64,000 nucleotides of DNA, from positions 372,001-436,000 of the forward strand of contig NW_025934720.1 in assembly GCF_000764305.2 (NCBI RefSeq), given 5' to 3'. Position numbers and translations under genes: made by a program. The notes under the pieces are model-generated. The model was not told where the DNA came from, ran no database searches, and saw only the letters and a list, made by a program, of their open reading frames with translations. How positions within the stretch are numbered: the stretch's first letter is position 1; each line of letters starts with the position of its first letter. Of the stretch, positions 2,701 to 48,416 are shown piece by piece. Source of the stretch: Hyalella azteca. Lineage: Eukaryota; Arthropoda; Malacostraca; Amphipoda; Hyalellidae.

Positions 2701-4104
2701 AATGAGAACACTATTCACGAAAAAAATTTGTATCATGGCAATAACTTTCTGACTTGTGAATTGTTTCGACCACGACCACTAGACTTGCACCAGACTTGCC
2801 CAGTGACCGCTCCAGGCGCCAGTGGCAGCGAGAGAGATGCTCTGTCCATCAGTCAGTCCATCACCCATTGTCCCTAAGCCGCCTGTGCGTCGTTGTTGGT
2901 CGTAATAAACAAGAGCAATAAGTTAATATACAAGAGCAAGTTGTTGCTATTTCATTTGCTTAGAGCTCGGCCGTGTCGTGTAGTGGGCGCTAGCCTGTCC
3001 CAAGCGTGTCGCCGCTCTCATTACTGACGCCCGTGTGCTGCATCTGATCTTTTTAGCGCATTTTCTCATTCTGTCTGTCCATCTGTCCGTCCGTCCCTCT
3101 GTCCGTCCGTCCGTGACCTCAAATTTTCGTCGACGAGAAAATGCCCTCCCTGTCACTCACTGCAGTGAGTACTTTGTTATATTTTTTCTTGTCTTGCAAA
3201 TCATCAAATGACTACGTTCACCGCAGCCTGTTGAGCGCAATTAAATATTCTTTTGTCTCTCAAAATTTGTTATGCATTAGGGATTTAAGGAATTTTTCTT
3301 CGCGGTCATGCAATTGTTTTATTCTCTGGAAAGTGCAAATTATTTTGCCCATGCAGCCCTTGACACACAAGTGTTGTGTGGAGTATCCATACGAGTCAGT
3401 TTATCCTCGGCCAAACAAAAAATTTCTTGCGTAAGTATTCTTAATACCTGCATAGAATACACAGAAAAATATGACGTATGTTTCAAGATTTGAAATCCAG
3501 CTCGATGAAATCCAATTCATTGACGCTAGTATAATGTTTGTGTTCGAACAAAGTGTAGAACTCAGCGCGAATTCTCCAGCTTGTAAGCAATGCATGGACG
3601 TCGGTCCATAATAACTAAGTTGCTTTCATCTCTGACAAGCTGGAAGCTTCTCAAAACTATTGAAATTCTGTCAAAAATTCACGGCTTACTGTAGAGGATA
3701 GAGCAACATATGCAGAAGTTTATTTGTTTAATAGGTTTACAGAGAACTTTTTTATTTTTATTTCAATTGAAAAGGTGCACCAGAGAAGTTATTGTGTCTT
3801 GCGCGTAGCTGTGAAGAAAGCGTATGGTATAAACACTGTAGTATGTTGAAATTTAAATTCTCGAATGCCCTCCTAATAGTTGTAGACTCGCTACCTATTG
3901 TAACGTTATTATTGTGATTATATATTCGTTCCTTTAATATTTTTTAAACTTATGGGTTAATTGCCTAGCTTTATTTTTATTATTTATTTTTTGCATTTTT
4001 GCGTAGCTTCAAAATCTCGGGCTCTAAAAATGGAACTCATGCGTGAACTCCTTGAACAATGAAATGAAATCTCGGCTGCATGGAGGCAGAATTAAGTTAG
4101 TTAG
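2701..4104. other. No gene supported; includes dispersed element copy 1
   Basis: AT-rich DNA apart from a GC-richer stretch at 2770-3180. Frames at 3141-3595 are open but overlap on both strands. Confidence 0.3.
3048..3180 (+). mobile_element. Dispersed palindromic element, copy 1
   Basis: Shares with copies 2 and 3 a left end TTAGCGCATTTTCTC, a TCGTCGACGAGAAAATG block and a right end TCACTCACTGCAGTGAGTAC. An internal GTCC/GTCT microsatellite (3075-3115) separates the ends. Non-coding and MITE-like; I see no transposase and no convincing target duplication. Confidence 0.6.
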
Positions 4105-4292
4105 ACAAATTAGTTATTAATCATTGTTAAAATTGGTTTATTCTTCTAAACCTAGTTATATTAATGATTAATTATTATTTAAATTAGTTTATCCTCTGAA
4201 ACCTAGTTTCATTATTGATTAATTATTATTTAAATTAGTTTATTCTCTGAGACATAGTTAAATTAGTGATCAGTTCATATTAAAATTAGTTT
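4105..4292. repeat. About 60-bp AT-rich tandem repeat, 3 units
   Basis: Units share the core AAATTAGTTTAT followed by CTCTGA and AACCTAGTT, diverged from each other. Confidence 0.6.
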
Positions 4293-4739
4293 ATTTTCTT
4301 AATAATCACATTCACATGATACTATATTCATGCTATATCAGAATATAGTATGAATGATTACGTCCACAGTATTATCAAGCTCTATTGAACTGCATAGATA
4401 TCAATAGTTTCATATGTTTCTTCATAAGGGCAATTAAAATCAGCATAAAAGCTGTTGAAATTAAAACAAGAAATTATCAGTTTGATATTTGAAGATTTAA
4501 TTATCCACCAATATTTTAGAATGAATCATTAAGTGATTTTGACTGAACTTCTATTATCTTTTCCGATTTCCAGATCGTTGATAGGATCGTAAATATGTTT
4601 TGACAGTTTAATTAGCTTTTATTATCCTCGCCCTGTTGTCTCTCCAATAACAATATCATCCCAAGCACGTGAATAATATTTAATAATTATTTGATGGGGG
4701 ATTGGAATCATCATGAACCATATCAAAGGAGAATTTATT

Positions 4740-4960
4740 TATGTGCGAAATATTTTCATATGGGATGACAATAATTTTATTAAGTTATATTACATTACTT
4801 TCACGTGTTGTGACAGCTCTATTAATACAGATTAATTACAGAAACTTCATGTGTGATGACAATAATTTAAATAATTTATATTACATTATTTCCACGTGTT
4901 GTGACAGCACTTTTAATACAGATTAATTACAGAATTTTCACGTGTGATGAGAGCAACTGT
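4740..4960. repeat. About 110-bp tandem repeat, 2 units
   Basis: Two diverged copies of a unit containing CACGTGTTGTGACAGC and AATACAGATTAATTACAGAA, with a partial third copy. Confidence 0.6.
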
Positions 4961-5018
4961 AATCCAGGTATACTGCAGTAATTTTATGTTACAGTATTCT
5001 TAAGTCAGCAGAGACCGC

Positions 5019-5062
5019 ACAATAGTTATAACAATAGTTATAACAATAGTTATAACAATAGC
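5019..5062. repeat. 12-bp repeat ACAATAGTTATA, 3.5 units
   Basis: Perfect short tandem array. Confidence 0.75.
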
Positions 5063-5134
5063 TGACAATATTCTAGAAGGGGGCCTTTGTGTCCCTGCAA
5101 GATGTGCAGCTACATATACAGGGTCAGAGCTGCT

Positions 5135-5232
5135 CTATTGACATCTGCAACACAATTATTTAGTCATCCTTTTGTGTCACTATTGACATCTGCAACACAA
5201 TTATGTAGTCATGCTTTTGTGTCACTATTGAG
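5135..5232. repeat. 45-bp tandem duplication
   Basis: Two units beginning CTATTGACATCTGCAACACA, 45 bp apart, with a partial third start at 5225. Confidence 0.7.
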
Positions 5233-5929
5233 GTCCAAACTTGTCTTGTTGATTGAGTGCAGAAGCAACAAATACTGCATAGTGTGTAGGCACGCATAAG
5301 ATAAGACGATTTGCCTGTTGCTTCATCAAATATTGCGCACAGTAATGTAATTCACTTGTCCTTGTGATATAAAAAATATTGCTACGGCATCGCCGTTATT
5401 GTCAATGTCACCAGAATACTCTTCTCTCCATGATGCGAGTATCATTAATTAACTGTTATACAATAAATACAATAAATATTTCGCTACGTAATGTCATTTT
5501 CTTGATCAGACGAGTATCCTAGCGATACATAAATATTACAACACGTATGGTCGTAGCCTCGATAAGATAAATATAGATATACTATATAATGCATATTGTA
5601 TTAAATCACTGCACATTCTGACGGATTTTATACACGACGGCTTTGCGCAAGCTTGTATTAAGACGACAATATTCAATAAGAATTTTTTGTAACTAAGCAA
5701 CTTCAATCCTGAATGACTTCTAGATCTGCATCCTATTTAATCACCTCCTGAAATGAGTGCGTGATTATTATCTATGCTTCCTAATGTCTAGTTACTGGCA
5801 AACGAAGATTAATTTGCTGATAAATCTTGACTTCATTTCGTGCTACAAATGTTAATAACGTTTTGGCAGCAGGTATTTGGGCATAGCTTAAGAAAGTCTA
5901 AATGCGTGTTGTCGCATGCGTGTTGCATC

Positions 5930-6170
5930 CCTTTCTCATTCCCTCGTCCCTCTCCTATCCCCTTCCCATATTTTTCCGACTCTTACTCCCTTTTCAAACA
6001 CCTTATTCCTTTCCCTTTATCACATCACACTCCCATTCTCCCCTGCCTCTGTCACTCTCACATCCCTCCCTCACTCCTCATCCCCTCCCTTATTCTCACA
6101 TCCCTCCTTCTCCCATCCCTCTCCCTCTCCCACTCTTCTTCTCCCCTCCCATGCCATCTGATCTCAGGCG
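5930..6170. repeat. Polypyrimidine C/T-rich tract
   Basis: About 240 bases, almost all C or T on the plus strand (CCCTCC- and TCTCCC-type words), directly before the 15-bp array. Confidence 0.7.
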
Positions 6171-6203
6171 CTCGTTGCTAGGTTGTCACCATGACAACCG
6201 CTC

Positions 6204-6480
6204 CCTGCCTCTGTCCTCCCTGCCTCTGTCCTCCCTGCCTCTGTCCTCCCTGCCTCTGTCCTCCCTGCCTCTGTCCTCCCCGCCTCTGTCCTCCCTGCCT
6301 CTGTCCTCCCTGCCTCTGTCCTCCCTGCCTCTGTCCTCCATGCCTCTGTCCTCCCTGTCTCTGTCCTCCCTGCTTCTGTCCTCCCTGCCTCTGTCCTCCC
6401 TGCCTCTGTCCTCCCTGCCTCTGTCCTCCCTGCCTCTGTCCTCCATGCCTCTGTCCTCCATGCCTCTGTCCTCCCTGCCT
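6204..6480. repeat. 15-bp minisatellite, about 18 units
   Basis: Unit CCCTGCCTCTGTCCT, nearly perfect. It has no stop triplet in most frames on either strand, so long ORFs here are artefacts of the repeat. Confidence 0.85.
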
Positions 6481-6755
6481 TTGATTACGTACAAGTTCAT
6501 GCGAAGAAATTTCAAAAAAATTGAACATAATCGATGATATAATTGTAAATGTAAAGCCGATGTTGATAACTCATGTACGGAAAATTCTATTCCTTCAAAC
6601 CACCATTTCCTCATTCATCAAAATATATAAATATTACATGATCTCATTCAGCGCATACAACAAATTAATATCATTTGGCCTGGGCTAGCCGATGCTTTTG
6701 TATTGGGACACCCTTAGTAAATGCGATACTCTGTTCACTATAGTACTCACCTCGT

Positions 6756-7205
6756 TCATGTATGGAGGCTGTCTAGACGTTGGGTTACTTTGTTGAATTT
6801 ATTTCGGAACTATTTCGGATGGCTTGACTTCTCAATCATCCAATTTTTACTCCCACCAAGTATCAACTTTTTAACTATCATATCCCTTTTAACTAATTAT
6901 CCTCTGTGAATAATTGTTCCACACAATAATTTCAAGTAATTGATTACTACATGTGTATTGTGACTAAAATCAAACATATTCCAGAGACCTGCGTCCATGA
7001 GCCGTCTATGAGAACCATCACTCGGTGCTCTAAATATCCAGCGTGCAGTGGATAATAAAAAATAGATGAAAATGTTAAGACCCCAAACACATTGTTCCCT
7101 ACAATCCAAACTAGAATTAACAACCTGCCATTCCAGCTTGTCTGGATCTCTTTTCGTTTGTGCTCTCTGTACGCATTTCTCAGGATCTCTTAAATCTTGC
7201 TTCAT
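6756..7205 (-). CDS. Hypothetical protein, 149 aa
   Basis: ATG at 7205 opens 102 codons free of every stop triplet in DNA of about 40% GC. It continues through two TAA/TAG codons (Gln) to TGA at 6758-6756, 150 codons in all. The N-terminus is highly charged (M-K-Q-D-L-R-D-P-E-K-C-V-Q-R-A-Q), with a central hydrophobic stretch (L-N-I-F-I-Y-F-L-L-S-T-A) that could be a membrane segment, and a basic C-terminus. No recognised domain. No close neighbour on the same strand; the dispersed repeat at 7797 lies upstream. Confidence 0.5.
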
Positions 7206-7796
7206 TTAACTCCATTTAACGAAGCGGCGGCTTACGGAAAAGATCCGCGCCCTGACTGAGCTGCGAATCAACATTTGCACCTACGCCTCTAAACCGTTAT
7301 CGTTTTAACGCTATTTCGTTTTATAGTGACGCAATTATTAACGTTTCAAACAGCAAGGCAGTTAGGCTGAATAATATGGATTAATAATAATGCGTGAACA
7401 TTAAAAAATGATAAAAAAAATAATTTTTACTCTATCAATTATTGGATAAGATGATTACCAAAATTTTACCCTTATAATTTGCGTGGGCGCAATTATGTCA
7501 CCGGAGCGAATTATTTCAGTTCAAGTCTTCAATACGTACAAGTAGTCGCCGTGATTGCCCTGACAACCTGTGGCCTTGTCTGTAGCTCTGTTCTTATTAA
7601 TTTATTCATTGAATGAAAAAAGCCCGTGATATGGTTTTGTTTTATTTTAGTTATCGGAATTGAGTTGAAATTTTGTTAAATTAGCTTCTTTATCTCGCGT
7701 CCTGATAATATCTGTTTTCCTGGTCAAAATTAACATGCAATGAAGTGTCGAAAGAATCTCATTGCAGTTTGAGCAATGACAGTGCATTAAAAAAAT

Positions 7797-7995
7797 AACT
7801 CAGTACTCACTGCAATGAGTGACAGAGAGCGCATTTTCTCGTCGACGAAAACGTGAAGTCACGGACAGACAGACGGACAGACGGACGGACAGACGGACGG
7901 ACAGACGGACGGACAGACGGACAGATGGACAGACAGACGGACATGGTGAGCACAATAGCGCATTTTTTCATAAATGAGAAAATGCGCTAAACATG
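7797..7995 (-). mobile_element. Dispersed palindromic element, copy 2 (inverted)
   Basis: Reverse-complement copy with the longest internal GGAC/AGAC microsatellite (about 7860-7940). On the minus strand its left part folds on itself: TAGCGCATTTTCTC faces AAAATGCGCTA 15-25 nt later. Confidence 0.6.
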
Positions 7996-8623
7996 AGCTA
8001 AATTTTTTCGAGATAGCGATGCACTTTTTTGCCTTTATGTGAGTCATCCTGACCCAGTTTGACCCCGGCTGAGTGCGACGTGCAAGTAGTGTGTCACTAG
8101 TTGTACAGTTTGACTCATCAGTATACTTGAGTGTGTGCCCAATCTGGATTCAACCAAGGGTTTCTTCTTAAGACTGGACCCTAAATTACATCACTTCTGG
8201 CAATGATCTTCCTAACTCGTCATGCATATTCATGCGCTGGGCAATTGATTTTGATGGAATTACCCCTGCAACTCGAGTGCCGGTGAACGGACGGACCTAA
8301 TGCATAGGCTAGCAGTCTTTTATCGCTCGGGTCGCGTCTATAGCGACTTTTTTGCGTTAAGTCTTCGCCTGCCTTGCTGCAATTTTTTGACCTTGCTGAC
8401 GAACTTTTTCTCGTTTTTATTCATCAATTAATAGTATGCCAAACGAATTACCAGCTGGCAAAATATTTTATGCATTTTTTTGTTTCTCTTTGTTTTCAGT
8501 ACTCTAAAATTTTGTAGAACTCGTGTTCTATAGGTTTTTCCTGCTTTCAACGGTTGATAAAACAAAAACAAAAAATAACAAAATATGCATCCATATCATA
8601 ATTCTTAATTCATGATATGCATT

Positions 8624-8712
8624 TTTAGCGCATTTTCTCGTTTATGGAAAAACGGCGCTATTTTTCTCGTCATAATGCACTCTCTGTCACTCACTGCAGT
8701 GAGTACTGAGTT
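8624..8712 (+). mobile_element. Dispersed palindromic element, copy 3, no microsatellite
   Basis: Same ends as copies 1 and 2 but only about 89 bp, lacking the GTCC/GTCT tract and the TCGTCGACGA block. It shows that the microsatellite is an expanded interior, not a flank. Confidence 0.55.
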
Positions 8713-9115
8713 GTATATTTTCATTCATGACTTGATAGATGAATTTCCTATCATAGTTTGTGTGCGTGTCCCAGCGGTACATCGACCCCCCTGCGTGTAT
8801 AAATCTCTCTCATATTATTTAAATATAACATATACATCAACATTATATTTCAACACCATTCATCATGTAAATGGTTGTTGAAGCATCGCGCTGAATTTTT
8901 GACTGGTTGGTATCACCCAATGCATCTATAATATATATTTCACTGCAAATTTTAATTTTTTTGAATTAACAAAATTTAATTCACATTTTTACACTCGAGA
9001 TGAAGTCGCTTAACCATGTCGACCAAAATATTATTAATTGAAGCTATTTATTCCTTATCAATTATACGTGTATTTTGCTCAACTTGGAGTGCAATCGTTT
9101 CTCGAATGATATAAC

Positions 9116-42082: not shown

Positions 42083-43683
42083 TGTAGCAGCAAACAAAAT
42101 GTCTTATTTATTTATTTTATAGATTTCACATGAACATTTCAAAATGATCAACTTTACTAAGGTCCTTGGTTCATGTTTGCCATCAATTTTACCAAGCAGC
42201 AGTCTGAGTTTGTATTGATATTATGCAAGTGAAAATTAAGGGGAGCGTTTTGGTAAATGAATCGAAAATTTTGGCACTTCTTTTTTTTTTGCCTCATTTG
42301 TAGCTGTGGGAGAGGCGCTTCAAATTCAGCAAACCGCATATATATGAGTAATCTATTTTTTGCGCGAAGCAGTTTCAAAATTGTATAAAATAAAAATTTT
42401 TAAACAGTATGTACAAAGATTCATTCAAGAAAAAAAATATTTTTAGATTATTATTCGCATTAATTCAGCTGGTTTTAAGCTCATAGAGTAGCTGCGAAAA
42501 AGGCGCGTCTTACGCCGCAAACCGTATATATGTTTGTACTTCATTTTTTGCGTGAGGCAGTTCCAAATTTATAAGAAATTAACTTTCTTTATTAGATACA
42601 TAGATTACTTTGAAAAATAGATAGATATATAGATCCCATTGAAAAATTGAATTTATATATCAGTTTTCGAGTTGATTGCAATGAGTTTAGCCTCATTTTA
42701 AAGCTGCAAAGTATGCAATAATTTTTATGTAAGGCCGTTCTCAACTTTTATGAAAAGACCATTTTAAATCAAGAAATATATTAGATAATATAATAATATA
42801 ATATTATATTATTTAAAAAACTATATTATCGAAAAATAAGCTATAAATATATTAAATTTGTTGCTTATAATTCGCGTAAAACTGGACAAGAATAAGTCTA
42901 AGGTCTCATGATGATATCCAAAAAACAAGTAATTGGCAATAGGAAGCTGGGGCAGCAGTATCAAGCAATTCTTAATTATTAATTTCTTTTTTAAACGAGA
43001 TTTTACTTATTTGGCTCCCCTGAACAATTAAAATTTCCATAATACACCGTCTTAAAAATCTATCTTCGCTAATGATTTCAAAGTGATAGCTTTGAGAGAC
43101 CTATCATTTGATTTGTAGAGATATAATCTAGCGACTCTAGATACTCTTTTTCTAATTTGTACCTTGTTAGGATTATATATTGAAAAAAACGTGGGTGGAG
43201 GGGGGCGGGGGAAATGGGGAAAATAGGAAAAAGTCGTATAAACAAAAATTGAATAAAAAATCGTAAAAAGCTGCTAGAGTTGATAAATATTCTTTTTACG
43301 AATCGCATGATTGATCTTTCGATGTTGTAGGACGTAAATTAAAGGAGGAGATAGATTTACAGTGGACCCCCCTTTCTTGCCGTTTTCTATGCATTTCATG
43401 TTCTCTTTCATATTTTTCGAAAATTCACATGAGCAAAATCTAAACAATTTCTAATTCTTTTTTTATTCGGTATAACTTTTTTAAATTACCTAATTTTGAA
43501 AAATCCGTCAGTAAATAAAAAAAAATTTTTATTGATGCAGACGTGAGATTCATTTTAGGTGCAAAACCTTTTTCCAATTTGTTCATACGTTGTAACATTC
43601 ATACTCTTATTGATCACTTAGAAAACAAAAGCTTTTTTCATGCCAGCAACGCGGATGATAATGTTTGATCTCATTACTCGGTG
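42083..43683. other. AT-rich with several short ATG-TGA frames
   Basis: Short minus frames at 43308-43078 (76 aa, hydrophobic), 43040-42906, 42762-42541 and 42339-42148 each have an ATG and a TGA, but lie in AT-rich or repeated DNA where such frames arise by chance. Confidence 0.25.
42330..42746. repeat. Degenerate repeat of about 190 bp, 3 copies
   Basis: Related segments near 42335, 42525 and 42710 share GC(A/C)AA(A)CCG(C/T)ATATAT followed by TTTTTTGCG and AGGCAGTT-like words. Short ORFs here (such as 42339-42148 and 42762-42541) are therefore weak. Confidence 0.45.
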
Positions 43684-44865: not shown

Positions 44866-45164
44866 TCGACAAATTGTAAGCGCTTCTGCTTGGAAATAAA
44901 GATTCTCTTAACGAACAACAAGGAGTATTATTTAGTCGAATGCTGGGTAAATTTAATAATAAAAGTGGTTATTAAATAAATATTTATTACATATAAATTA
45001 CCTTATATTTGGTAATTTGCTAACTGTTCTCCGAAAAAGTAAACAGTTCTTGATATGCGATCTCAACATGCCTATTATGTCGCAATACAAGTACTATTTT
45101 ATTGGTACAAATGCATCAGCCTACATCAGCCTGTCAGATTCATCAATTGATTTAGCACAGAAGT

Positions 45165-48100
45165 TCACACATAAACTTTATCACAAAAGGCGAGTCCAGG
45201 AACTTTATCAGTTATTGGTGTGAGAGTTTCATCTCTTAAAAAGTTCAGGGGATAATGCACTAACATGCCGCGAATATTTTACAGAAGAGCTCGTGCCTGA
45301 TTCGGATCTGTTTGAGCCAGCGATTTTGATGGATCCCGAGCCCGGAGTTGCTTAAAATTTCGCACGGAATCGCAAGGTAAACATTCAAAGACTCGCTCAT
45401 AGAGCTTTGAATTGTCGCTGCTCCAGCGGTTCCAGACGCCGTTCCAGAAGTTTTCGCTGCATGGGTTGCTTAGATCGATAATATACGGCGCCTGATGCAT
45501 CAGGCCCAAATGCTCCCGAAAAAGAGCCATACGTAAGGATTTGACGGTGTTCAATGTTTTGTCTTGTTCTAAATCGCCAACAGTACTTTGGAGACTATCT
45601 TCTGAGTCCGAAGAAAATCCCACCGATGCTTGAGAGGCTTGCGTAGTGAAGTCACCGGTGTTGAAATAAGTTCTTTTCAGTCCCTAGAAACTTTTTTCAG
45701 TCCTGCGATCATCTTGCAGAACGACGCACAGCTCGGAGTCTCTGTCGCCTAGCAAACTACGGTCATTAATATTGGCCGAGCCCAAGATGCAAATCATATC
45801 GTCAACAATCATCAGCTTAGAATGGATATAAACTATTTCCGTTATGGGGACTCCATTAAGCATCCCAAATTGCCTCAGACTGCAGACTGACAAATAGTCT
45901 TGCCATCGAGTGACGCCGGCACTCCGAAGTCTTCCAATGATGGAGCACGGAGATTTACTCAGGGAAGCGTGAGTCCATCTTAGCAAAGCTTTTTGAGAAG
46001 TGCAAGTCTCAGTGCCCAGCTATCCTGGCATATCAGAAAGCAATGGAATCACGAGGAAAACCTTGAAGGTTTCCTGTTTCTTGTGCGCTCTGATTATACG
46101 ATCGAAAATAAGCTAAGTCACTGGGTTTGTCGGTTCACTACTCTCCTGGCTATCCTTCCCCGCACAAGTGGTGACAAAAAACTAATTCTCCAGGAAAATA
46201 AATCTTTTCGCCGTATTTATCGCCCATTCGTACGCTGCTATAATCGACGATTCTCCCACAGGGTGATGAAAGCCTGCTGATCTGACCATTTAGACGCGGA
46301 CTTCTCTCTGATAACATCCTTTTATGTGTGAATTGGTCATTTCCGGCAGTGGGCAGAGGACCGGAAATTGCTTCGAATTCCTCAGTCGAAGATCACGTCG
46401 AACGTAGTTCCACCTCTCTATGAAATGCCTCGTGAAATCGCGTGCCACTTCTCCGGTGATGTTCATGTGAACATCGTGCCAAGGCATTCTGGCCGTGTAA
46501 TAAGGATGAGCTTCCTTCACGAATGGGTTCTAAAAGTCTTTTTGTTCCCATCGTTTCCATTCTGAGCCATGTCCTAGCCCAGGACGACCCGATTCCTTGC
46601 ATATTTATGAGATCGCTGAGGTGATATCAGACATTTTATTATCCCGAACGAGGTGATGGTGATCGTCTCTCCGTCCGTATGTTAGATCAATACCTCCCAA
46701 AAAGACCTCACTTTGATCTATGACGACCAATTTTTCATGGTGAGACCACATGATTCCACGGCGATTAAATGCTATTTTTGGATGACACATTACGTGTATG
46801 TTCTCGTGCAATGAATGCAGTGTTTTTTGGACGGTGATGGCTCCCATATCTTGTATCAAGGGAACTCCTCGGTAAATCAAGACGTAAATATGGACCCCGT
46901 CTCTTGCTTTGCTGAGCAATACATCCTTGAGCTCCAGCTCCGAGCCCGGACGAATACGTAAATCAGGTGAGAGCTTGAAAGCCGTGATGAAGATTTGGTC
47001 CTTCGCTTCTACTAAAGCCTAATATAGATGATTAATATAATCCGAGGCATCAATGTGAAGGCGCACAGAACACGCGTTCCTCTCAGGAGACCAGCCTTTA
47101 AATCTGTTGCTTTGGTTTCGGGATTACCATTGATTAATTGTGTGGGTTATTCTCTGCACAACATTCTCGTAATTAGCCTCAATGCTGGTTTCGGCATGCA
47201 AATGAATAGAGACGTCAATCTTACTAATGATTTCCTTTGTACCCTATGTCACTGAAGATTCATTGAATTGATCTTGGTGCTTACCCCACAACATGCCATC
47301 GCGGCAGATGCTCGGAGTATCGTCCTTTTGTCTCGAAATTTCTTCATAGTACTTGTCAGATAGAGGTTCTTCACCTCGATTTAATGATTCGCATGGAAAT
47401 TCGTTTTATTGTTCTTCCGCAGAGTCTGGAGATGAATCATGCCCAAATTTGAGAACATGTTTTTTCTGAGTATTTAAGATCCGCTCACTACGGCTGACTA
47501 AGTTCAAGCTGGCTGGTTCTTCAAAATGTCCTGAAGCTTCTTTTCTATGGCTGTTCATACTAGAATTTCCTTGTTGCTCTATGCTCCTGTCGAAGATTTC
47601 CGTCTAAGCGCGCACAATGGCTTACAAACTAACTTCACTGCCCGTCACTTCTTTCAAGATTTTCAGATTCCATTTTTACCATTCGTTTTCCAATGTTAAT
47701 TCTTTTTCGCTTTCTTAGACCACTTTCAAACTTTAATTGTATAGAATCACGTCCTTTAAAATTGTAGTCTGCTCATTGACGAGGGCAATAAAGTCATCGT
47801 TCACGTACATTAAGCACTTCCTTCTGCCCATTGATTTTCGGAGCATAACTTGAAAACATTACTGTTAGGGCAAACATGGAAAATGAGCCATGTTTTGAAA
47901 TGTTATTGATGAAATTGTTTACTGGGGATGTTAAGAATTTAAACTATTATTTCCAAATTTCGATGTTGAAGCTGTGCTTCTGGCTCAAGTAGTATTAGTC
48001 TGAACTAAAAATAAGGAATTTTATCTCAAGTGATATGAAACCTCTTCAAGATGTCTCTGCTACAGATGATCCAGCCGAAAAAACTGCGTTCTTCTGCGTC

Positions 48101-48416
48101 CTTTGATCTCCTCGCTGTTTAAGTTTCAATTTAGGAGCCAGATTTGTGGACTTATAGAATTCCGATAGACAACGTTACTCTGCAGATAACCGGGGCCCCG
48201 GTCTAAATTTTAGGAAGGAGCTGCTGGAAAATGAGTCTCAACTGTATTTCTTTTTCTGGTATCGTGTCTACGAAAAAAAACGAGTTGGACCCGATCATTA
48301 TAAATTTATTGTATTCGAATTCTATGCCAATAAATAGTTTAGCCAGGTTCTAAAAGCAGAGTTTGATATATCACTTACTCCTATGTCTTAGGTATCATAT
48401 TTTCCGCCTTATTCAT
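45165..48416 (-). CDS. PLD: Phospholipase D, PX/PH-type, read with UAA/UAG = Gln
   Basis: Phospholipase D hydrolyses phosphatidylcholine to phosphatidic acid and choline, usually at membranes. One frame from ATG (48416) to TGA (45167-45165) gives 1083 residues, close to animal PLD1 (about 1070). The first HKD motif is HHEKLVVID (catalytic H560, K562, D567), followed by GGIDLTYGR. MPWHD opens the central conserved block. The second motif is HSKLMIVD (H865, K867, D872) followed by GSANINDRS. The tail has IRG and ends D-K-V-Y-V, like the family's E-V-W-T. Residues 1-300 fit degenerate PX and PH regions (inference). There are 28 in-frame TAA/TAG codons; residue 709 (V-R-V-Q-M-V-R-S) and residue 745 (L-E-N-Q-F-F) are Gln sites in the family. 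In-frame TGAs at residues 97 and 144 are read as Trp; if they were stops, the start would move to ATG 47891. Odd: the usual I-T-D-W-W-L-S-P reads I-T-A-F-K-L-S-P (residues 477-484). No intron is needed. Confidence 0.94.

Follow-up and report, generated by a model that had tools for sequence, protein, structure and literature searches.

The window, i.e., the whole 64,000-nucleotide stretch of DNA analyzed here, spans positions 372001-436000 of contig C1201 in an assembly of 519 Mb and 4890 contigs; beyond it, positions 1-200000 and 436001-446000 of the 1,166,737 bases of C1201 were examined. A Pfam search of the six frames of the window, translated with NCBI table 6 (UAA and UAG as glutamine) and with TGA read through, finds phospholipase D (PLD) only, apart from matches apparently driven by repeats (Extensin_1, pentapeptide and decapeptide repeats, HC2; E up to 0.01), and there are no tRNA or Rfam matches at gathering score in the 64 kb. 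The features are as follows, with TAR standing for TAA or TAG and CAR for CAA or CAG:

45098..45103, minus strand: AATAAA downstream of the PLD stop
45165..47891, minus strand: open reading frame with UAA/UAG as glutamine, the open part from an ATG; 908 codons, 19 TAR, TGA stop; part of a PH-like region, a complete two-HKD PLD catalytic domain and a C-terminal domain
45216..47858, minus strand: part with PLD homology detectable in profile searches
45756..45824, minus strand: second HKD motif region (Pfam PLDc), intact
46182..46184, minus strand: TAG, codon 745, in a column with ~100% Gln (ENQFF motif) in 66 homologues
46290..46292, minus strand: TAA, codon 709, in a column with 94% Gln (weighted) in 66 homologues
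46716..46739, minus strand: first HKD motif, within HHEKLVVID, intact
47985..47987, minus strand: in-frame TGA, codon 144 of a longer, 1084-codon frame
48126..48128, minus strand: in-frame TGA, codon 97 of the 1084-codon frame
42844..43439: diverged interspersed repeat, 1.7 kb from the PLD stop, also found at C1201:175.4-175.9 kb (75-81% identity)
3070..8725: copies of a dispersed GACGGACA-type repeat common to C1201:1-200k and contig C3114
6201-6480, 9547-9909, 10800-11193, 11985-12498, 22355-22863, 34628-35509, 36293-36676, 37416-37856 and 59048-59253: minisatellites

Minisatellites are dense in the window, mostly with 15-60 bp units, and where the period is a multiple of three, long spurious open frames result.

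The homology to the PLD family noticed in the first-pass annotation is strong: the gene matches the human PLD1 catalytic construct at E = 1e-107 as well as Pfam PLDc and PLDc_2. In an AlphaFold model of the 908-residue product, most of the catalytic core is modeled at pLDDT ~70-95, with values below 50 in 386 of the 908 residues, and Foldseek matches the model to human PLD2/PLD1 with E down to 5e-54. The two HKD motifs, together with the modeled catalytic fold, indicate a member of the eukaryotic PLD1/2 family. Of the upstream domains, the PH-like region is represented by its 3' part alone, and a search for PX along the minus strand as far as 64 kb gives no positive-scoring match.

The gene had been annotated as an unbroken frame of 1084 codons (45165-48416, minus strand). 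Its ATG start, its TGA end and its 28 in-frame TAA/TAG codons (18 TAA and 10 TAG) are there, but two internal TGAs, at codons 97 and 144, were overlooked and mean that this frame is not open under table 6. PLD homology starts at 47858, with an N-terminal profile score of 44 bits, and the sequence upstream of this point, scored alone, falls below zero against both profiles used; nine TARs and both internal TGAs are thus left without evidence of coding. From 47861 on, the frame comprises 898 codons with 10 TAA, 8 TAG and no TGA before the terminal one, and no frameshift is seen in this homology-covered part. At a TGA rate of 2.6%, zero TGA in 898 codons has a chance of 5e-11; the five other frames of the 1084-codon region carry 20 to 36 TGAs each. 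A start at 48416, and the count of 28 TARs with it, was rejected in view of the two TGAs and the lack of homology 5' of 47858. Judged from the sequence, the supported gene is a single exon of ~898 codons with 18 TAR that starts inside the PH-like region; the border near 47860 would fit either a splice acceptor or an insertion edge. The PLD frame is real, with its annotated boundaries wrong.

The glutamine preference that had been expected of the TAR columns is borne out. In an alignment with TARs masked as X, built with 66 of 109 homologues (21 ids were dropped for shortness or bacterial origin before a redundancy filter), the Gln frequency summed over 12 TAR columns is 2.55 vs 0.47 expected (permutation P = 8.5e-5); Gln is the only residue enriched, the next lowest P being 0.19 for Ser. 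Columns at least 70% filled were scored, i.e., 12 of the 19 TARs in this alignment and nine in a first, coarser one, which left out matches under 800 aa and three bacterial ones. Among 97 columns conserved at ≥95%, the window PLD keeps the residue at 85, differs at 10 and has a TAR at two, both of them Gln columns. Codons 604 and 799, aligned on a Gly and a Phe column, respectively, were kept and count against Gln. In the coarser alignment, the nine TAR columns score 8.7 bits for Gln, 3.8 for Lys and 3.0 for Glu; the four TAA columns alone put Lys (4.4 bits) above Gln (0.4 bits), so the assignment of TAA to glutamine leans mainly on codon 709. Some TARs are placed differently by the two alignments. 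Both UAA and UAG fall on conserved Gln positions, as table 6 has it, and the Gln codons of the window PLD would then be 18 TAR and 33 CAR. The UAR = Gln signature and the intact frame argue that selection preserved the encoded protein while the gene was in a cell reading UAA/UAG as glutamine.

The most ordinary alternative is a decayed animal pseudogene, a 5'-truncated processed copy with TARs that are nonsense mutations. Like a processed pseudogene, the window PLD is one exon with homology truncated 5', here inside the PH domain, and the stop-bearing HSP70 copies of the assembly likewise have more TAR than TGA (12 vs 3). It differs from such copies in showing no frameshift, no internal TGA, no loss of a catalytic motif, both HKD motifs being intact, and no poly-A tract; it also keeps 85 of 97 highly conserved residues and carries TARs on Gln columns. 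A neutral simulation predicts far more damage. Starting from a CAR-coded gene and run until 19 TAR are gained (kappa 2 and kappa 4, 400 runs each), it needs ~960-1060 mutations and destroys at least 15 of the 85 conserved residues, 43-44 on average. The first-pass annotation had reasoned that decay should bring TGAs, and the simulation agrees, averaging 7.3-7.4 TGAs vs zero in the 898 codons; a run free of TGA occurs once in 400 at kappa 2 and never in 400 at kappa 4. Neutral decay would have destroyed far more, which argues that the frame was maintained with UAR = Gln. Set against the stop-bearing HSP70 copies, the absence of TGA alone is weaker evidence: TAR:TGA ratios of 18:0 and 12:3 differ at Fisher P = 0.08. 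A C-to-T change of CAR codons was considered as well and rejected, with 11 CGA remaining and no TGA (P = 0.008). The search for marks of retroposition found none that convince: 45164-44845 holds no run of five or more A, and a target-site duplication is not convincingly present, the one short direct repeat between the two ends being eight bases long and AT-only. The locus thus lacks the decayed frame, the poly-A tract and the target-site duplication of a processed pseudogene, and this reading is strongly disfavored and highly improbable.

The glutamine reading had also been extended to the genome as a whole, and there it fails. Glutamine in the other homology-defined genes is encoded by 258 CAR and 0 TAR: 13 CAR in the exons of a host intron-bearing PLD, 12 in a Bruno/CELF-like exon, 84 in four C2-type PLDs and 149 in eight HSP70 loci. 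The difference from the window PLD (TAR vs CAR, 18:33 vs 0:258) has a Fisher P of 4.5e-16. The four C2-PLDs in this count were read to the first stop, which makes their TAR count zero by construction; that stop falls at the C-terminus of the family, and the HSP70 matches were read through stops. Five C2-PLDs end at the conserved C-terminus on TAG, TAA, TAG, TAG and TGA, i.e., four of the five on TAR. HSP70 gave 61 matches (59 of 121 candidates scored), none of them UAR-coded: 53 lack an internal stop and eight have one to three, for a total of 12 TAR and 3 TGA. Among the eight loci fetched, four hold stops (5 TAR and 1 TGA), which sit on columns where no other locus has Gln. Six high-scoring HSP70 copies are clustered at C3322:98137-151958; one of them holds a lone TAA, at a position where the remaining loci examined have Ser, Thr or Ala.

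On C1201 itself, an RRM-coding exon at 69.9-70.4 kb, presumably Bruno/CELF-like, is followed by a GT donor, and an ORF at 53.5-54.8 kb has 137 CAR and no TAR; the longest table 6 frames listed for C1201:1-200k look, by eye, like minisatellites, extensions of standard ORFs or noncoding stretches. The host PX-PH-type PLD is a multi-exon gene on C3114; its Gln codons are CAA/CAG, with CAG at both conserved columns that are TAR in the window PLD, and it ends on TGA. It groups with one insect and one nematode PLD (98 SH-aLRT in a tree of 80 homologues, 91/98 in a tree of 21). An exon-like stretch, IDLCYGRWDDYRHRLV, occurs eight times in 0.6 kb within this host gene (L029:6937-7512). Plant-type PLDs are present as one long open frame (770-944 codons) on C1274, C654 and C1853, with a sixth at C4148:135295-136224 besides the five whose ends are given above; the C654 gene, seen whole, has two C2-like domains by eye. 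These C2-PLDs may be transferred genes. Contamination as the source of the C654 contig was dropped: it has repeats in common with C1201 that are 97-98% identical. The sequences support the conclusion that C1201, C3114 and C654 belong to one genome, with the host PLD and the CELF-like exon marking it as animal; the HSP70 contigs, C1274, C1853, C4148 and C4613 (see below) are tied to C1201 by no test. The ordinary genes examined in the assembly appear to use the standard code, neither reading UAR as Gln nor having UGA as their only terminator.

The tRNAs that a UAR = Gln code would need, with UUA and CUA anticodons, were proposed as a check, and the assembly contains such genes, putatively charged with glutamine. 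Across the 519 Mb, a search pattern that couples a UUA- or CUA-bearing anticodon arm of the Gln type to a B box returns two matches, C4613:68625-68655 and 69572-69602 on the minus strand, with none in a reversed control. They belong to two genes:

C4613:68613-68684, minus strand: tRNA gene, anticodon CUA (ARAGORN; Rfam tRNA model 67.8 bits)
C4613:69560-69631, minus strand: tRNA gene, anticodon UUA (ARAGORN; Rfam tRNA model 73.5 bits)

ARAGORN reports both as complete tRNAs, cta and tta, labeled tRNA-Pyl and tRNA-Stop under the bacterial code. The genes are intact, lie 0.9 kb apart and differ at 5 of 72 positions. Their body (CATGGTGTAATGGTTAGCAC, GGACTYTAAATCC) resembles eukaryotic tRNA-Gln, and both tRNAs may carry glutamine. 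In the surrounding 7 kb of C4613, few genes are apparent by eye and minisatellites abound, as in the host contigs; no repeats common to these 7 kb and the sampled host DNA were found, so an animal origin of C4613 is suggested by style and composition alone.

The ancestry of the window PLD is less clear than its code. There is no second copy among the matches in the assembly, and a recent copy of the host C3114 PLD is ruled out, the two being only 33-48% identical. Among the matches of the protein searches there is no named relative with a UAR = Gln code; identity in the nearest long alignments is 30-40%, and the branch is long. Trees were built with 80, 21 and 16 homologues, each with the window PLD and the host PLD added. 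With 21, the window PLD falls weakly (66/82) beside a K/N-rich group, P0004/P0012, which might at a guess be ciliates; an animal clade that includes the window PLD is not rejected (AU p = 0.355). With this group left out, in the 16-homologue tree, it joins animals (93/92), and fungal and oomycete placements cost more without being rejected (p = 0.08 and 0.15). At six sites where the K/N-rich group alone differs, the window PLD has the animal-and-fungal residue at four, another residue at two and that of the group at none, which argues against kinship with P0004/P0012. It has the animal residue at one of three sites where animals alone differ. In pairwise score over 406 columns it is nearest to animal PLDs, with a non-animal row scoring slightly higher in one 76-column exon, and it has a one-residue insertion in common with four animal-type rows. 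In tetranucleotide make-up it resembles the host background, unlike the GC-rich exon of the host PLD.

Any account has to combine three facts: the frame was selected under UAR = Gln, the animal genome surrounding it uses the standard code, and the assembly also contains UUA/CUA tRNA genes. The reading placed first, at a probability of roughly 0.42, is foreign DNA from a UAR = Gln eukaryote that entered the animal genome by recent horizontal transfer; decoding by the animal, a mis-join and the pseudogene follow in this order. Foreign DNA leads because it explains the frame and the tRNAs by a known kind of code. The donor would be a eukaryote of such a kind, i.e., of ciliate, hexamitin, oxymonad, aphelid or syndinean type; its PLD would have arrived 5'-truncated inside the PH domain and been dead on arrival, since the first UAR would stop translation in the animal, and the two tRNA genes would have come from the same source. 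TARs on Gln columns, the undecayed frame, the lack of a second copy and the presence of the tRNA genes all fit, but other observations pull away from a foreign origin. The searches turned up no close UAR = Gln relative. The gene has no firm position in the tree, joins animals once the K/N-rich group is left out, and never has the residue of that group at the six sites. Its tetranucleotides are those of the host, and the DNA around the tRNA locus is rich in minisatellites and poor in genes, in the style of the host. The UAR = Gln signature has its own soft spots in the preference of TAA for Lys in one alignment and in the P of only 0.08 for the comparison with HSP70 stops. A symbiont genome, moreover, should give UAR-coded HSP70, and none occurs among the 61 matches (59 of 121 candidates scored). 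This last point also weighs against an assembly artefact, in which symbiont DNA was mis-joined into an animal contig and there was no biological transfer. A mis-join gains from flanks (48.4-64 kb and 43.45-45.16 kb) devoid of repeats common to the sampled host DNA, and a contaminant could account for the UAR-type tRNA genes of the assembly; yet the window contains no N, a host repeat reaches to 1.7 kb from the PLD in the left flank, and the right flank is compositionally host-like over 16 kb and has no Pfam match. An artefact of this sort seems improbable.

That the animal itself decodes UAA/UAG as Gln, in a limited set of genes or cells, is a less likely alternative. UARs in the PLD mRNA would be decoded by the two tRNAs, and UAR would remain the terminator of most genes, as in context-dependent codes; the PLD would be a fast-evolving animal gene with one large last exon, or a retrogene. 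All three facts are then explained inside one genome, and both loci are host-like in context: the tRNA genes are intact and lie in gene-poor minisatellite DNA of host style, and the PLD is host-like in composition, nearest to animal PLDs over 406 columns, has the insertion common to four animal-type rows, and groups with animals without the K/N-rich group and is not rejected from them with it. Against this stand the 258 CAR vs 0 TAR at Gln in other genes, the TAR that ends four of five C2-PLDs, and the five TARs of four HSP70 loci on non-Gln columns. To read through 18 UARs, suppression would have to be very efficient, and genes ending on UAR should suffer from it; among the titles and abstract openings listed in literature searches, none points to an animal case. 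The fuller claim, of an animal genome that translates UAR as Gln in one or more maintained genes with a tRNA-Gln-type pair of its own while most genes stay standard, is doubtful.

Protists and algae are known to use UAR = Gln codes, and to our knowledge no animal does; either reading, transfer or animal decoding, would be unusual. A foreign-coded gene residing in an animal genome would directly attest to transfer across a code barrier, the code of the transferred gene serving as a built-in tracer of the donor. Animal decoding, if true, would be the first part-reassigned or dual code in Metazoa, and a UAR-coded animal gene served by a functional UUA/CUA tRNA-Gln pair would amount to code reassignment under way there.

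The window gene resembles PX-PH PLDs (PLD1/PLD2, Spo14 type) in its two HKD motifs, PLD1/2 catalytic fold and C-terminal domain; it differs in having no PX found and a partial PH-like region, and is ~30-40% identical on a long branch. Passages in the literature assign the nuclear code with UAA/UAG as Gln (NCBI table 6) to some ciliates, ulvophyte algae, hexamitin diplomonads, some oxymonads and Amoeboaphelidium (PMC5304391, PMC2984419, PMC6394959, PMC4967479). The window PLD is like genes in this code in its UARs on conserved Gln columns and its UGA terminator, and the assembly in its UUA and CUA tRNA genes; by contrast, the genome here is animal-like, UAR serves as stop in other genes, and no other gene examined has UAR at Gln. 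Context-dependent codes are described, again in passages, for Condylostoma (UAR = Gln) and Blastocrithidia (UAR = Glu) (PMC5304391, PMC12153298). Sense use is genome-wide in these organisms, whereas here it is seen in one gene; if the animal does decode UAR, the likeness would lie in the same codons acting as both sense and stop in one genome.
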